A stretch of 64,000 nt of DNA from Bacteroidales bacterium (GTDB lineage: Bacteria; Bacteroidota; Bacteroidia; Bacteroidales; Lentimicrobiaceae): contig JAEUTG010000004.1 of NCBI GenBank assembly GCA_016788045.1, positions 124,001 through 188,000 of the forward strand, read 5' to 3'. Position 1 is the first letter of the stretch. The number at the start of each line of letters is the position of its first letter. The notes under the pieces are model-generated. The model ran no database searches and had not been told where the DNA came from. It saw only the letters and a list, made by a program, of their open reading frames with translations. The position numbers and the translations under genes were made by a program. Below are positions 9,533 to 29,827 of this stretch, in pieces.

Positions 9533-10132
9533 TCAGACACAGAAAACCTGGATCAGAGGAAGTAAAGGAAGGAAGGTTAACAAATAGTCTTTCAGCTCCT
9601 TGTGAAGCAAGCCCAGAGCTTTGCTGATACGAACTTCGACTGTTCTTACCGATACGCCCAGTTTTTGCGCGATTTCTGAATAGCTGAGCAGACCATGTCG
9701 ATTCAACAAGTAAGCTTCTGTGAGTTCGGCTGGAAGTCTGTTCAGAGCCGCACTGAAAGCGGCCTGCAGTTCCGAATGAAGAATATAGTTCTCGGTATCG
9801 TTCGCCGATGGGATGATCTTCTTTCTGACAAGCTCAGCATAGCTGTTCTTTATGCTGTTGTGCCTGAGGTAGTCTATGCTCTTATTTTGCGCTGCTTTCA
9901 ACAGAAATGACTTCAGCGAGGTTTTTATCTGAAGAAAGGTTCTCTGCTCCCAAAGTTTCAGAAAAACATCCTGAATGATTTCTTCAGATACTTCAGTATC
10001 GCGGGTATAGGCAAATGAGAAGCTGACAAGGTCTTTATAATACTTTCTGAATAGGATAGTGAAGGCAGCTTTATCACCCGATCTTAGTTTTTCAACAAGA
10101 AATTGTTCCCGACCGTCATCATCGAAATTCAT
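9533..10132 (-). CDS. ECF RNA polymerase sigma factor (FecI/RpoE-like)
   Basis: 199 residues. Sigma region 2 lies at about 20-90 (AFTILFRKYYKDLVSFSF, then EIIQDVFLKLWEQR) and region 4 at about 125-175 (LPAELTEAYLLNRHGLLSYSEIAQKLGVSVRTVEVRI). It belongs to the Bacteroidota ECF group that pairs with FecR proteins and switches on SusC/SusD genes. It is the first gene of the locus, followed by its anti-sigma factor. No autoregulatory promoter can be proven from the sequence, but a -7-like box for the housekeeping sigma factor lies 18 bp upstream. Confidence 0.93.
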   Translation of the reverse strand: MNFDDDGREQFLVEKLRSGDKAAFTILFRKYYKDLVSFSFAYTRDTEVSEEIIQDVFLKLWEQRTFLQIKTSLKSFLLKAAQNKSIDYLRHNSIKNSYAELVRKKIIPSANDTENYILHSELQAAFSAALNRLPAELTEAYLLNRHGLLSYSEIAQKLGVSVRTVEVRISKALGLLHKELKDYLLTFLPLLPLIQVFCV

Positions 10133-26099: not shown

Positions 26100-26184
26100 T
26101 TTTTTAAGAAATTTATTCGTTTCTATAACAAACAGATTATCATGTACTTGAAAATTCAAACCCTGATCTGATGTGAAACCCAGC

Positions 26185-27045
26185 CCTGAAAGGGCGCCAT
26201 CCACCATCACAGGAGGCAGCCCTGAGAATCCAGACCGAACGCAGAACACAGCTCTGAGAATCCAGACCAGCAGCTAAGATAAGCCCTGAAAGGGCGCCAT
26301 CCATTAATACAGGGCGTAGCCCTGTGAATTCGAAGGTAATCCGAACCCAGCCCTGAAAGAGCTCTATCCGCCTACACAGGGAGCAGCTCTGAGAATCCAG
26401 ACCAGAAGCTAAGATAAGCCCTGAAAGGGCGCCATCCACTAACACAGGGCGCAGTCCTGTGAATTCGAAGGTAATCCGAACCCAGCCCTGAAAGAGCTCT
26501 ATCCACCTACACAGGGAGCAGCTCTGAGAATCCAGACTAGAAGCTAAGATAAGCCCTGAAAGGGCGCCATCCACTAACACAGGGCGCAGCCCTGTGAATT
26601 CGAAGGTAATCCGAACCCAGCCCTGAAAGAGCTCTATCCACCCACACAGGGCGCAGCTCTGAGAATCCAGACCAGAAGCTAAGATAAGCCCTGAAAGGGC
26701 GCCATCCATTAAGACAGGGCGCAGCCCTGTGAAATCGAAGGAAAGCAGAACCCAGCCCTGAAAGAGCTCTATCCACCCACACAAGGTGCAGCCCTGAGAA
26801 TCCAGACCAGAAGCTAAGATAAGCCCTGAAAGGGCGCCATCCACTAACACAGGGCGCAGTCCCGTGAATTCGATGCGAATGCGGAATACATCCCTGAAAG
26901 GGCGCCATCCACCCACACAGGGCGCAGCTCTGAGAATCCAGACCAGAAGCAAAGATAAGTCCTGAAAGGGCGCTATCCATTAACACAGGGCGCAGCCCTG
27001 TGAATTCGAAGGGAACGCAGAACCCAGCCCTGAAAGGGCGAAATA
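26185..27045 (+). repeat. Left array: about 13 hairpin units, 67/68-bp period, dimeric 135-bp higher order
   Basis: The core CCCTGAAAG starts at 26284, 26351, 26419, 26486, 26554, 26621, 26689, 26756, 26824, 26892, 26960 and 27028, with an older partial unit from 26185. Two unit types alternate. Type A continues GGGCGCCATCCA and carries the hairpin CACAGGGC-GCA-GCCCTGTG followed by AATTCGAAGG. Type B continues AGCTCTATCCA, has a weakened hairpin and ends AATCCAGACCAGAAGC. Alternating 67- and 68-bp steps give a 135-bp dimer. Translating the array gives an open but meaningless 45-residue repeat. Confidence 0.9.
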
Positions 27046-27046
27046 A

Positions 27047-27499
27047 CTAATCCCACACATACCTCTCGTCATACTCAATTCCATACTTAGCCAAAAATGC
27101 CAGATACTCTTCTTCAAAAGTTAACTTTCTGTGATGTTCATGCTGTCTCTCGATATATGTCTTTACCACATCAACCTCAGCCGGGTTGACCGAGAATGTC
27201 CCATATCCATCCTGCCAGTAAAAGTTCTTGAGTAAGGGATCTTTTGTTTTTATCCATTTTGAGGAATGGGATTTAACTTCCTCCAGCAATTTTGCCAAAG
27301 CAATATTTTTCGACAACATGCAGAGGATATGAACATGGTTGGAATGCCCCCCGATTTTCAGAGGCTGACATTTCAGGTTTTTGCAAATTCCACCGAGGTA
27401 ACTGTAAAGTTCTTCTTCGGTGGGAGGGTGAATCAGATGCACACGGTGTTTGGTGCTGAAAGTGATGTGGATGTAGTTTTTAACTAAAGATTGCCCCAT
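27047..27499 (-). CDS. IS200-like Y1 (HUH) transposase, RAYT-type
   Basis: 150 residues, complete. The HUH metal site is GGHSNHVHIL near residue 52 and the catalytic tyrosine lies in VVKTYIERQHEHH near residue 117; the C-terminus FLAKYGIEYDERYVWD is characteristic of the Bacteroidota branch of this family. These enzymes cut and join single-stranded DNA at hairpins. The gene is enclosed by a perfect 20-bp inverted repeat: it starts 9 bp inside the right copy (27509-27528) and stops 1 bp inside the left copy (27026-27045). No accessory TnpB or cargo gene is present, as expected for a domesticated REP-associated transposase. Confidence 0.92.
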   Translation of the reverse strand: MGQSLVKNYIHITFSTKHRVHLIHPPTEEELYSYLGGICKNLKCQPLKIGGHSNHVHILCMLSKNIALAKLLEEVKSHSSKWIKTKDPLLKNFYWQDGYGTFSVNPAEVDVVKTYIERQHEHHRKLTFEEEYLAFLAKYGIEYDERYVWD

Positions 27500-27508
27500 A
27501 ATGTTTGG

Positions 27509-27990
27509 TATTTCGCCCTTTCAGGGCTTAGCATTTTTATGTTTTTAACGATGGACTTCGCCCATCGTTGTTATCTTTCGCCCTTTTAGGGCTTACCATT
27601 TTTATGATTTTTAACGATGGACTCCGCCCATCGTTGTTATCTTTTGCCCTTTCAGGGCTTTCAGTCGATCATTTTATACACGATGGACTCCGCCCATCGT
27701 TGTTATCTTTTGCCCTTTCAGGGCTTTCAGTCGATCATTTTATACACGATGGACTTCGCCCATCGTTGATGTCTTTTGCCCTTTCAGGGCTTATTTCGTG
27801 CTTATTTCATAATCGATGGACTTCGCCCATCGTTGTTATCTTTCGCCCTTTCAGGGTTTTCATTTGATCATTTTATGTACAATGGTCTTCGCCCATCGTT
27901 GATGTCTTACGCCCTTTCAGGGCTTATCTTGTGCATATTTTATATTCGATGGACTTGGTCCTTCGGGTATTACTTACGCCCTTTCATGAC
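27509..27990 (-). repeat. Right array: eight hairpin units of 65-67 bp, opposite orientation
   Basis: The core GCCCTTTCAGGGC (minus-strand form of the shared hairpin) starts at 27515, 27580, 27646, 27712, 27778, 27845, 27911 and, truncated, 27978. Each unit has a second hairpin, minus strand ACGATGGGC-GAA-GTCCATCGT or a variant with loop GGA; the 27881 copy has a G-A change in its arm and the 27948 copy is broken. The spacer after the first hairpin is similar in length to that of the left array but differs in sequence. All units point toward the transposase gene, mirroring the left array. Confidence 0.9.
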
Positions 27991-28002
27991 ACATTATTCG
28001 TT

Positions 28003-28092
28003 AAGTCCTGAAAGGACAAAATCTGTTATCACAGCGGCGAAGCCCTGTGATACCGGTTACTAAATCAGGAAGAAGCCCTGAAAGGGCGAAAT
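28003..28092 (+). repeat. Third variant of the hairpin unit
   Basis: A plus-oriented unit with first hairpin GTCCT-GAA-AGGAC (both arms changed together), second hairpin TATCACAG-CGGCGAAGCC-CTGTGATA (28027-28052), and then a standard AGCCCTGAAAGGGCGAAAT (28074-28092). The second hairpin keeps the GGC-GAA-GCC core while its outer arms differ from both arrays. Confidence 0.8.
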
Positions 28093-28110
28093 TTTTCAAC
28101 ACCCTTTATT

Positions 28111-28278
28111 TTAATCTCTGGTTAACTCGCCTCTAAACACCCTCTTCACAGGTTTTTCTTTAATACCTCTAAAATTATCCAATTTTTTCTGATAAATCGC
28201 TTCCAGTGTTTTTGTTTCGGATGAAAGGTTTTCAAGTTTGGCGACGATCGATTGCTGTTCCACTATCGTCGATATATT
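28111..28278 (-). pseudogene. C-terminal fragment of a type I restriction specificity subunit (HsdS)
   Basis: Fifty-five codons and a TAA remain on the minus strand. They include VEQQSIVAKLENLSSETK and LEAIYQKKLDN, the conserved C-terminal coiled coil of HsdS proteins, followed by a diverged version of the usual KKS.LQKAFxGEL ending (VKRVFRGELTRD). There is no start codon and no DNA-binding domain: the upstream side runs straight into a broken repeat at 28281. No hsdM or hsdR is in the window. It is a relic of a lost or rearranged restriction-modification locus. Confidence 0.8.
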
Positions 28279-28280
28279 AT

Positions 28281-28385
28281 ACCCTTCAGGGCTTACTGTT
28301 ATTTGTTTTCTTAACGATGGACTTCGCCCAACGTTCGCATATTTCGCCCTTTCAGGGCTAACCTATTTTGTTTTCTAAACAATCG
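28281..28385 (-). repeat. Scattered right-array-type repeat remnants next to hsdS fragment
   Basis: A truncated core (ACCCTTCAGGGC at 28281), a second-type hairpin with loop GAA (about 28314-28335, one arm mutated) and a perfect 20-bp copy of the transposase-flanking repeat at 28340-28359, then a decayed tail ending about 40 bp before the mnmE stop codon. Confidence 0.75.
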
Positions 28386-28423: not shown

Positions 28424-29827
28424 TTACTTTCCGATACAGAACTTCCCGAAAATATTCCCCAACAGCTCATCGGTGGTGACTTCGCCAGTGATGCTGCCCA
28501 GGTGATGGAGCGCCTGGCGGATGTCGATTGCAATCAGATCAGATGGAATGCCATTGGCAAAGCCCTCCTCAATACTGGCGATGCTTTGGGAGGCTCGTGA
28601 AAGGGCTTCGTAATGGCGGAGGCTGTAAACCACCGTCTGGTCAGTGGAATCTCCCTGTCGGGCCGACTTCAGCAGGCGTTCGGTAATCAGGTTGATGTTT
28701 TCGTTGCGCTTGGCCGATACAAAAAGGGTGTCGAGTTCAACAAGTTTCCTGAATGAATGCGGTGCCTCGCCCAGCATATCGGTTTTGTTGGCTACCAGAA
28801 TGATCTGTTTTTCAGGATCGTCGAGCTGATTCCTTATGCTGGCGAGCGCTTCATCGATCTCCTTCTCTGTGGTTGTGTTGATATCGAATACATATAGGAC
28901 CACAGCAGCCTGGTTCATCTTTTCAAAAGTTCGTCCGATGCCAATGTTTTCAACTACATCATCAGAGTGGCGGATTCCGGCCGTATCAATAAACCTGAAA
29001 GTAGTCCCCTGTATGCTGATGGTGTCTTCGATGGCATCGCGGGTAGTACCGGGAATTTCTGAAACAATGGCCCTTTCTTCGTTCAGGAGGGCATTCAGCA
29101 AGGTTGACTTGCCAACATTGGGTGCACCGGCGATGGCCACCGGAATTCCATGTTTCATCACATTGCCCAGTGCAAAACTTGATTTCAGGGATTCAAGCTC
29201 CGATTTTATCTTACCGAGCAGGTCAAACAAGGCATGGCGGTCGGCAAACTCCACATCCTCCTCACTGAAATCAAGTTCGAGTTCAATCAACGAAGCAAAA
29301 TCAATGAGCCGCGCCCTGAGTTCTCCGATTTTCAGTGAGAAACCGCCGCGCATCTGCTGCATGGCCAGACGGTGTGAAGCCACTGAATTGGAGGCAATCA
29401 GATCGGCAACTGCTTCAGCCTGCGACAAGTCAAACTTCCCGTTAAGGAATCCCCTGAGGGTAAATTCACCCGGTTCTGCCAGGCGGGCACCGGCCGACAA
29501 TAAGGCTTCCAGTATGCGCTGTTGGATAAAAACAGAACCGTGACATGAGATTTCAACGATATCCTGACCATTGTATGAGTGGGGATTTTTGAAATACGTA
29601 ATGAGTACCTCGTCAAGCAGTTCACCCATGACCATGAATTTTCCGAAGTAAACCATGCGGGGAACGATGGTTTCAGCCGTAACATCTCTGCTGATCTCAA
29701 CAAACTGTAAGCTGATGTCCGCTGCATCTGGGCCGGAAAGCCTCACAACACCGATTGCCCCTGATCCTGCAGGGGTTGACAGCGCACAGATCGTATCATT
29801 CAGGTTGATAAATGCAGTGTTCATCAT
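28424..29827 (-). CDS. mnmE: tRNA uridine-5-carboxymethylaminomethyl modification GTPase
   Basis: 467 residues, the normal length. The N-terminal formyl-THF-binding domain (about 1-120) has CALSTPAGSGAIGVVRLSG. A helical domain surrounds the G domain, which has the P-loop GAPNVGKSTLLNALL, GTTRD, DTAG and NKTD. The C-terminus is FCIGK, the family hallmark with its catalytic cysteine. With MnmG it modifies the wobble uridine of several tRNAs. It reads alone, divergent from sucD. Confidence 0.97.
   Translation of the reverse strand: MMNTAFINLNDTICALSTPAGSGAIGVVRLSGPDAADISLQFVEISRDVTAETIVPRMVYFGKFMVMGELLDEVLITYFKNPHSYNGQDIVEISCHGSVFIQQRILEALLSAGARLAEPGEFTLRGFLNGKFDLSQAEAVADLIASNSVASHRLAMQQMRGGFSLKIGELRARLIDFASLIELELDFSEEDVEFADRHALFDLLGKIKSELESLKSSFALGNVMKHGIPVAIAGAPNVGKSTLLNALLNEERAIVSEIPGTTRDAIEDTISIQGTTFRFIDTAGIRHSDDVVENIGIGRTFEKMNQAAVVLYVFDINTTTEKEIDEALASIRNQLDDPEKQIILVANKTDMLGEAPHSFRKLVELDTLFVSAKRNENINLITERLLKSARQGDSTDQTVVYSLRHYEALSRASQSIASIEEGFANGIPSDLIAIDIRQALHHLGSITGEVTTDELLGNIFGKFCIGK

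Follow-up and report, generated by a model that had tools for sequence, protein, structure and literature searches.

Why is a small transposase gene enclosed by two opposed arrays of hairpins, and do the gene and the hairpins belong together? This question is raised by a locus of the window, that is, the whole stretch of 64,000 nucleotides analysed here (positions 124,001 to 188,000 of contig JAEUTG010000004.1, assembly GCA_016788045.1), which comes from a Bacteroidales bacterium of the Lentimicrobiaceae. An initial annotation described 13 plus-strand and 8 minus-strand hairpins facing the gene of a 150-aa Y1 transposase, called tnpA below, with a perfect 20-bp inverted repeat lying 9 bp from its start and 1 bp from its stop. 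The hairpins were re-counted and the repeat was located (Table 1), and this description is accurate. In both arrays the hairpins counted, H1, alternate with hairpins of another kind, H2. The same annotation proposed a candidate system of repetitive extragenic palindromes (REPs) and a REP-associated tyrosine transposase (RAYT). The best explanation, to which a probability of about 0.72 is given, is a REPtron-like pair, in which a domesticated, vertically inherited single-strand transposase of the Y1 subclass 1.2 type possesses its own family of hairpins, and would bind them, cut beside them and move them as units. This reading is built on direct observations: the pairing of genes and hairpins, their inverted geometry, a conserved tail, the co-variation of stem and clade, the marks of vertical descent and purifying selection, the turnover of the arrays and the existence of elements without the gene.

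The pairing was examined in a survey of about 165 subclass-1.2-like genes, taken from the window genome, from 80 stretches of 79 other Bacteroidota genomes and from 80 named loci, almost all of them of Bacteroidota, in a species genome collection that was searched with a three-protein alignment. A gene was scored positive when the same 5-bp stem was found on both sides within 400 bp; a test for stems of at least 6 bp misses the 5-bp stems, including those of the window itself. Such a stem flanks 98 of the 165 genes, versus 1 of 422 control positions, which were taken from these loci at distances above 4 kb. Relative to the gene, the hairpins on its two sides have inverse orientations: loops read in the gene direction conform to RnA in 87 cases and to TnY in 10 within 150 bp upstream, the corresponding numbers within 150 bp downstream being 25 and 90, and 38 of the nearest hairpin pairs face inward versus 2 outward. 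The stem varies from gene to gene (GTCCC, ATCCC, GCTCC, ACCCC, GCCCT and others) and tracks the tnpA phylogeny: placed as labels on the tnpA tree, the stems require 23 changes versus 49 expected, and none of 200 shuffles gave a value as low. Some of the surveyed loci (L180, L190 and L209) are contigs that are labelled as Methylococcaceae or Planctomycetaceae metagenome-assembled genomes but bear a Bacteroidota-type tnpA, and are probably mis-binned.

When the hairpins are aligned on their loops, all stem families have in common the 3' tail n-AAATATTnGTAGAAA, with an A at +4 and a T at +5 that reach 0.9-2.0 bits in the well-sampled families. This tail is conserved independently of the stem; no 5' tetranucleotide is conserved, conservation being found 3' of the hairpin. 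In a cross-validation in which a perfect 5-bp stem plus tail was trained on half of the loci and tested on the other half, the motif occurred within 600 bp of the gene in 65/79 and 54/81 cases for the two halves. Its density per 10 kb was 13.4 near the gene versus 0.16 elsewhere in the same loci, and 9.3 versus 0.30 in the second half, i.e. 30- to 80-fold higher at the genes, and shuffled sequence yielded 4 and 3 matches in total. A less strict scan detects the motif at 148 of the 165 genes, but it was trained on every locus and is not independent. In 58 copies that touch a gene, the tail is kept to about +7 (AAATAt) and its GGTAG part is lost, which puts the junction between array and gene, and thus the predicted cut, about 7 nt 3' of the hairpin. 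The 20-bp inverted repeat of the window ends at this same junction. The hairpin and its tail were combined in a covariance model, R1, built on the set with 3-nt loops; an alignment of mixed loops misplaced the stems. Since perfect stems were the criterion for inclusion in this set, covariation counts on it provide no independent evidence.

To which class does the enzyme belong? TnpA-Y1 proteins of subclass 1.2 are marked by Y---Q--HH, W-Q and about 148 aa, are related to IS200 transposases, occur in low copy number, mainly in Bacteroidetes and Cyanobacteria, and are listed without REP and 'generally without' terminal structures, the RAYTs proper being class 2 proteins with Y---NP (Quentin et al. 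2018, PMC6006769). The window protein matches PF01797 (E=7.7e-25), passes the NCBIfam IS200 model (61.9 bits, cut-off 55) and displays the motifs NHVH, WQ and Y115-xxx-Q119-xx-HH, the last one as YIERQHEHH. H55, H57 and Y115 are invariant across 40 aligned sequences, and the Y---Q--HH signature is present in 166 of 173 relatives. The consensus DH[IV]H, which is not strictly defining for the subclass, reads NHVH in the window protein and DHIH in 5 of the 8 genes of the genome. The best Protein Data Bank match of the AlphaFold model (pLDDT 85) is IS608 TnpA, ISDra2 TnpA is also among the closest, and the E. coli RAYT-REP complex 4er8 comes as the 30th structural match. On its sequence, the window protein is thus of the subclass 1.2 type, a class 1, IS200-like enzyme. 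A RAYT identity was rejected, the signature being Y---Q--HH instead of Y---NP and the palindrome having no GTAG on its 5' side. The proposal of the initial annotation is therefore supported for the pairing of a transposase with cognate hairpins, which extends far beyond the locus, but neither for the class of the protein nor for the repeats, which lack a GTAG at their 5' foot and have the 3' tail as their conserved motif. Eight Y---Q--HH genes are present in the window genome, seven of them 29-48% identical to the window protein, in addition to three Y1 genes of other types; among the eight, no near-identical tnpA copies at several sites and no recent insertion sequence (IS) copies were seen.

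The locus is best classed as a class-1 REPtron-like system, a variant of the REPtron. REPtrons with REPs and bacterial interspersed mosaic elements (BIMEs) have been described in E. coli, S. maltophilia and Marinomonas (Corneloup et al. 2021, PMC8266576), and the Mb REPs of Marinomonas, with 5-bp stems and a TTTA loop (PMC8266576), much resemble the hairpins found here. As in these systems, a Y1 HUH gene is bordered by short palindromes in inverse orientation, repeats are dispersed without the gene (here in the relative G010 and in a sister family, the window-type repeat being confined to one locus of its own genome), the gene is low-copy and house-keeping-like, and each gene has its own repeat family. 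The locus is filed as a variant because this presumably REPtron-like working comes without two defining TnpAREP/RAYT features: the protein is class 1 (Y---Q--HH) and not class 2 (Y---NP), and instead of a GTAG directly 5' of the stem there is the conserved 3' tail. The long tandem arrays with two alternating hairpins are a further difference. With the published subclass 1.2 the system has in common the Y---Q--HH and WQ motifs, a length of about 150 aa, a low copy number and the presence in Bacteroidetes, but most members examined here have matched hairpins, whereas that survey lists no REP (PMC6006769). The IS200/IS605 elements (IS608, ISDra2) are the closest family in fold and sequence and also have end hairpins, but these lie on the same strand there and are inverted here, where the gene is in addition vertically inherited and under purifying selection. 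Two other candidates were rejected. In TIRYT/TIRtron systems inverted repeats, rather than GTAG REPs, flank a Y1 transposase gene as they do here, but their motif is GGGGWSAS and their proteins are mostly of subclass 2.1 (Di Nocera et al. 2013, PMC3733652), whereas the inverted repeat of the window is AGCCCTGAAAGGGCGAAATA and its protein is class 1. The CGTC-tagged REPs are likewise small stem-loops from the same phyla, being found also in Bacteroidetes and Chlorobi, but their published features, 8-9 bp stems, a CCA tail and no associated transposase (PMC3733652), differ from the motif described here. The open-access literature, to which the search was confined and which leaves out subscription papers, contained no published account of subclass 1.2 repeats or of the pairing of transposase and hairpins.

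The history of the pair can be followed within the genus. The window-type enzyme is present in 7 of 19 genomes, and all 7 contain 7-32 copies of the 15-mer AGCCCTGAAAGGGCG; in the 12 genomes without the ortholog, six copies are found in G014, one in G009 and none in the other ten (hypergeometric 1.6e-4 for at least 2 copies, phylogeny uncorrected). In G000, which is the window genome, and in G001, G003, G004 and G007, tnpA lies downstream of mnmE, a tRNA-modification GTPase gene, in the same orientation. Pairwise proportions of synonymous differences (pS) are 0.67/0.70, 0.76/0.77, 0.65/0.69, 0.63/0.69, 0.02/0.06 and 0.18/0.21 for tnpA/mnmE. The proportion of non-synonymous differences (pN) between G000 and G001 is 0.063 for tnpA versus 0.166 for mnmE, the tnpA pN from G000 being much lower, and the ratio of non-synonymous to synonymous substitution rates (dN/dS) of tnpA is about 0.04-0.06 for most diverged pairs. 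Because the pS of tnpA matches that of mnmE while its pN is lower, these comparisons point to vertical descent under a constraint stronger than that of mnmE, and to a loss of tnpA in G005, G009 and G015; that it inserted several times at one site beside mnmE is less likely. The arrays, by comparison, change quickly. Their length, which the initial annotation had suggested comparing, does differ between the close relatives G001 and G004 (mnmE pS 0.06), with 9/8 versus 5/13 units, the G004 array being cut by a contig end. The gene-proximal hairpin nevertheless starts 29-30 nt from the ATG in G000, G003, G004 and G011. In G010, elements without tnpA, of the form H1- H2- H1-, about 11 nt, H1+ H2+ H1+, occupy at least 6 loci with largely unrelated flanks; two pairs of them have a partly common flank, so that their ends are imperfectly defined. 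In G017 (L256), whose mnmE is 96% identical to that of the window, another tandem repeat (GGTGGCTTCGAGCGTTTCGAGAACCTC...) directly follows mnmE, with no window-type hairpin up to the contig end just after mnmE, in an assembly that is 72% complete.

A genome-wide count of the repeat, also suggested by the initial annotation, gave 40 exact copies of the H1 13-mer GCCCTGAAAGGGC versus 1 for the reversed control, an abundance that is therefore not due to chance. The bare count is nevertheless misleading, since this core is common to two families that are separated by their flanks. The window-type AGCCCTGAAAGGGCG accounts for 11 of the 40, every one of them in this locus. The sister family, CGCCCTGAAAGGGCAG, is found around the gene of a paralogous transposase on contig C8. 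Together with the H2 GCCCGGGGCAACGCCCCGGGC it also makes up units of about 110 bp, each with three hairpins, which are dispersed over several further contigs and in several cases lie at contig ends; in a 60-contig assembly with units at contig ends, copy counts are lower bounds. The closest paralogue of the C8 enzyme in G010 (MSQSLSKLY...) likewise has C8-type feet.

The locus itself is described in Table 1. Seven of the left-array H1 hairpins are exact copies of GCCCTGAAAGGGC and 6 have one change, versus 5 exact copies and 3 with one or two changes in the right array. The H2 hairpin is ACAGGGCGCAGCCCTGTG in the left array and, in the right array, CGATGGACTTCGCCCATCG on the plus strand or CGATGGGCGAAGTCCATCG when read on the minus strand; in both arrays its loop is a GNA triloop (GAA or GCA), found on the strand that also has the GAA of H1. 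Tandem Repeats Finder resolves the left array as a 135-bp unit repeated 5.8 times with 91% matches, and the right one as a 66-bp unit repeated 7.2 times. The left gene-proximal hairpin folds as single-stranded DNA with -4.7 kcal/mol, and a third copy of its sequence lies at 28340. The array continues beyond 27990 with two plus units (28005, 28075) and one minus unit (28346), and the -/+ junction at 27990/28005 is the one found in the gene-less elements of G010. The hairpins have no match in Rfam. Terminator-like hairpins number 16 between 26000 and 28500, versus 2.7 expected, and the arrays may insulate transcription of tnpA and mnmE on both strands. An open frame between the array pieces (28114-28362, minus strand, ending ...LENLSSETKTLEAIYQKKLDNFRGIKEKPVKRVFRGELTRD) has no Pfam match and looks by eye like the C-terminus of a type I restriction specificity subunit.

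Table 1. Features of the tnpA locus in window coordinates, with the sites of the sister repeat family
Feature	Position	Strand	Remarks
Left array	26183..27039	+	H1/H2 alternating; 135-bp higher-order repeat; GAA/GCA-loop strand +, toward tnpA 3' end
Gene-proximal hairpin + tail, left half of 20-bp inverted repeat	27026..27045	+	AGCCCTGAAAGGGCGAAATA; 1 bp from tnpA stop
tnpA (150-aa HUH/Y1)	27047..27499	-	453 bp
Gene-proximal hairpin + tail, right half of 20-bp inverted repeat	27509..27528	-	9 bp from tnpA ATG
Right array	27515..27990	-	H1/H2 alternating; 66-bp unit; GAA-loop strand -, toward tnpA 5' end
Two plus units	28005..28087	+	GTCCTGAAAGGAC (compensated stem) and GCCCTGAAAGGGC, with H2 ATCACAGCGGCGAAGCCCTGTGAT
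Outermost minus unit(s)	28282..28364	-	Partly degenerate, adjoining mnmE
mnmE	28424..29827	-	Neighbour, outside the system; marker of vertical descent
Sister-family sites in G000	Contigs C8, C20, C23, C28, C54, C57, C59		L025-L028, L032-L035
Sister hairpin (C8 family)			CGCCCTGAAAGGGCAGCTTAA

How would such a pair work? The substrate is likely single-stranded DNA consisting of a 5-bp stem, an A-ended loop of 3-4 nt (GNA/GNNA, here GAA) and then a short A/T-rich 3' tail. By analogy with IS608 and the REPtrons, the enzyme would grip the folded hairpin and its loop on one strand, and would cut this strand by means of Tyr115 about 7 nt 3' of the hairpin before rejoining the ends. Acting on strands exposed during replication or repair, it would insert, delete or scatter units without moving the gene itself, and the inverted pairs and tandem units would offer it many substrates.

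The REPtron-like pairing can be confronted with the distribution of the motif across the phylum. Among the 121 genomes that possess a strong tnpA relative, R1 detects it in 94, and the association of strong relatives versus all other genomes has an odds ratio of about 14 (Fisher p about 4e-28, phylogeny uncontrolled). Several observations weigh against the pairing. Repeats in genomes without the transposase, which the initial annotation had named as evidence against a link, do occur to some extent: 33 of 206 Bacteroidota genomes without any detected relative carry the motif, 21 of them in one genus, and conversely the motif is not found, at the threshold used, in 27 of the 121 that possess a strong one. 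The six window-type copies of G014 imply that hairpins can persist or be maintained alone. The two most divergent tnpA of the window genome, on C57 and C59, have no shared flanking stem, and the window-type repeat is restricted to one locus of its own genome, so that the only instances of dispersal in trans come from a relative and from the sister family. The exceptional genus, g62 of family f19 (e.g. G028, G089, G231, G243, G247; L312-L325), which is perhaps Chlorobium-like, has genomes of 2-3 Mb with no detectable subclass 1.2 gene. They contain many scattered copies of the motif, frequently in -/+ pairs that face outward at a distance of about 32-50 nt. These hairpins may have been left behind by a lost enzyme, or may be served by an undetected one; a tie to long class 2.1-like genes (MPRGARLDAPG...) was rejected, since of 20 loci with Y1 genes of other subclasses only 1 has the motif.

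Could the hairpins, then, be unrelated to the enzyme, as generic terminators or as a selfish intergenic repeat? The genomes that have the motif and no detected tnpA, as well as the sixteen terminator-like matches of the region, would fit, but this is scarcely credible for a motif that is so much denser at the genes than elsewhere in the same loci, that is nearly absent from the loci of other Y1 subclasses and whose stem follows the tnpA clade. It is also improbable that tnpA belongs to an ordinary IS200-type element, which moves as an IS and whose end hairpins, serving as IS ends or transcription blockers, were multiplied by replication slippage. IS200/IS605 elements also bear end hairpins, and the window protein resembles their transposases both by its NCBIfam score and by its IS608-like fold. 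In Aquiflexum sp. TKW24L (L231), moreover, three identical tandem tnpA copies occur at 10001, 10917 and 11833, with a period of 916 bp and GTCCC hairpins flanking each; this triplet, which could be counted for an IS, is a rare local gene duplication. What makes an ordinary IS unlikely is that the ends are inverted instead of being same-strand left and right ends, and that tnpA, beside mnmE, displays mnmE-like synonymous divergence and stronger purifying selection. The other tnpA genes of the genome, at most 48% identical to that of the window, and the existence of gene-less elements argue in the same direction.

An explanation that deserves to be taken more seriously, unlikely as it is, confines the enzyme to the gene-proximal hairpins, for autoregulation or for an immobile role on single-stranded DNA, and attributes the variation of the arrays to recombination, RecA-dependent or by slippage, in which the enzyme has no part. 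The 91% matches of the tandem 135-bp units fit unequal exchange, the spacing of 29-30 nt to the ATG is fixed while the arrays vary, and the strong purifying selection on tnpA and the excess of terminator-like matches are compatible with such a role. Dispersed gene-less elements in largely unrelated flanks, however, need a mobilising activity, and in other genomes, too, the motif is present at numerous scattered sites. The local amplification of the repeats by the transposase, put forward by the initial annotation, is possible but unproven; the tandem pattern of 135-bp and 66-bp units would equally result from slippage or unequal recombination.

To our knowledge, the model enzymes for the spread of REPs are all class 2. 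The REPtron-like pair described here offers a class-1 enzyme that is nearer to the well-solved IS608 transposase, with inverted cognate hairpins and a readable junction. The fast turnover of the arrays between sister species and the several paralogous pairs of enzyme and hairpin in one genome make specificity and mobilisation directly testable. The pairing runs counter to the published survey, in which subclass 1.2 is listed without REP, and it would account for a common class of intergenic hairpin arrays in Bacteroidota. It appears reasonably probable, if less so than the pairing at this locus, that subclass 1.2 is a phylum-wide Bacteroidota lineage of domesticated single-strand transposases with their own REP-like repeats, in which a GNA/GNNA-type A-ended loop and a 3' AAATATTnGTAGAAA tail replace the 5' GTAG. 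Such a lineage would be a REPtron class derived from IS200-like enzymes independently of the class 2 RAYTs.

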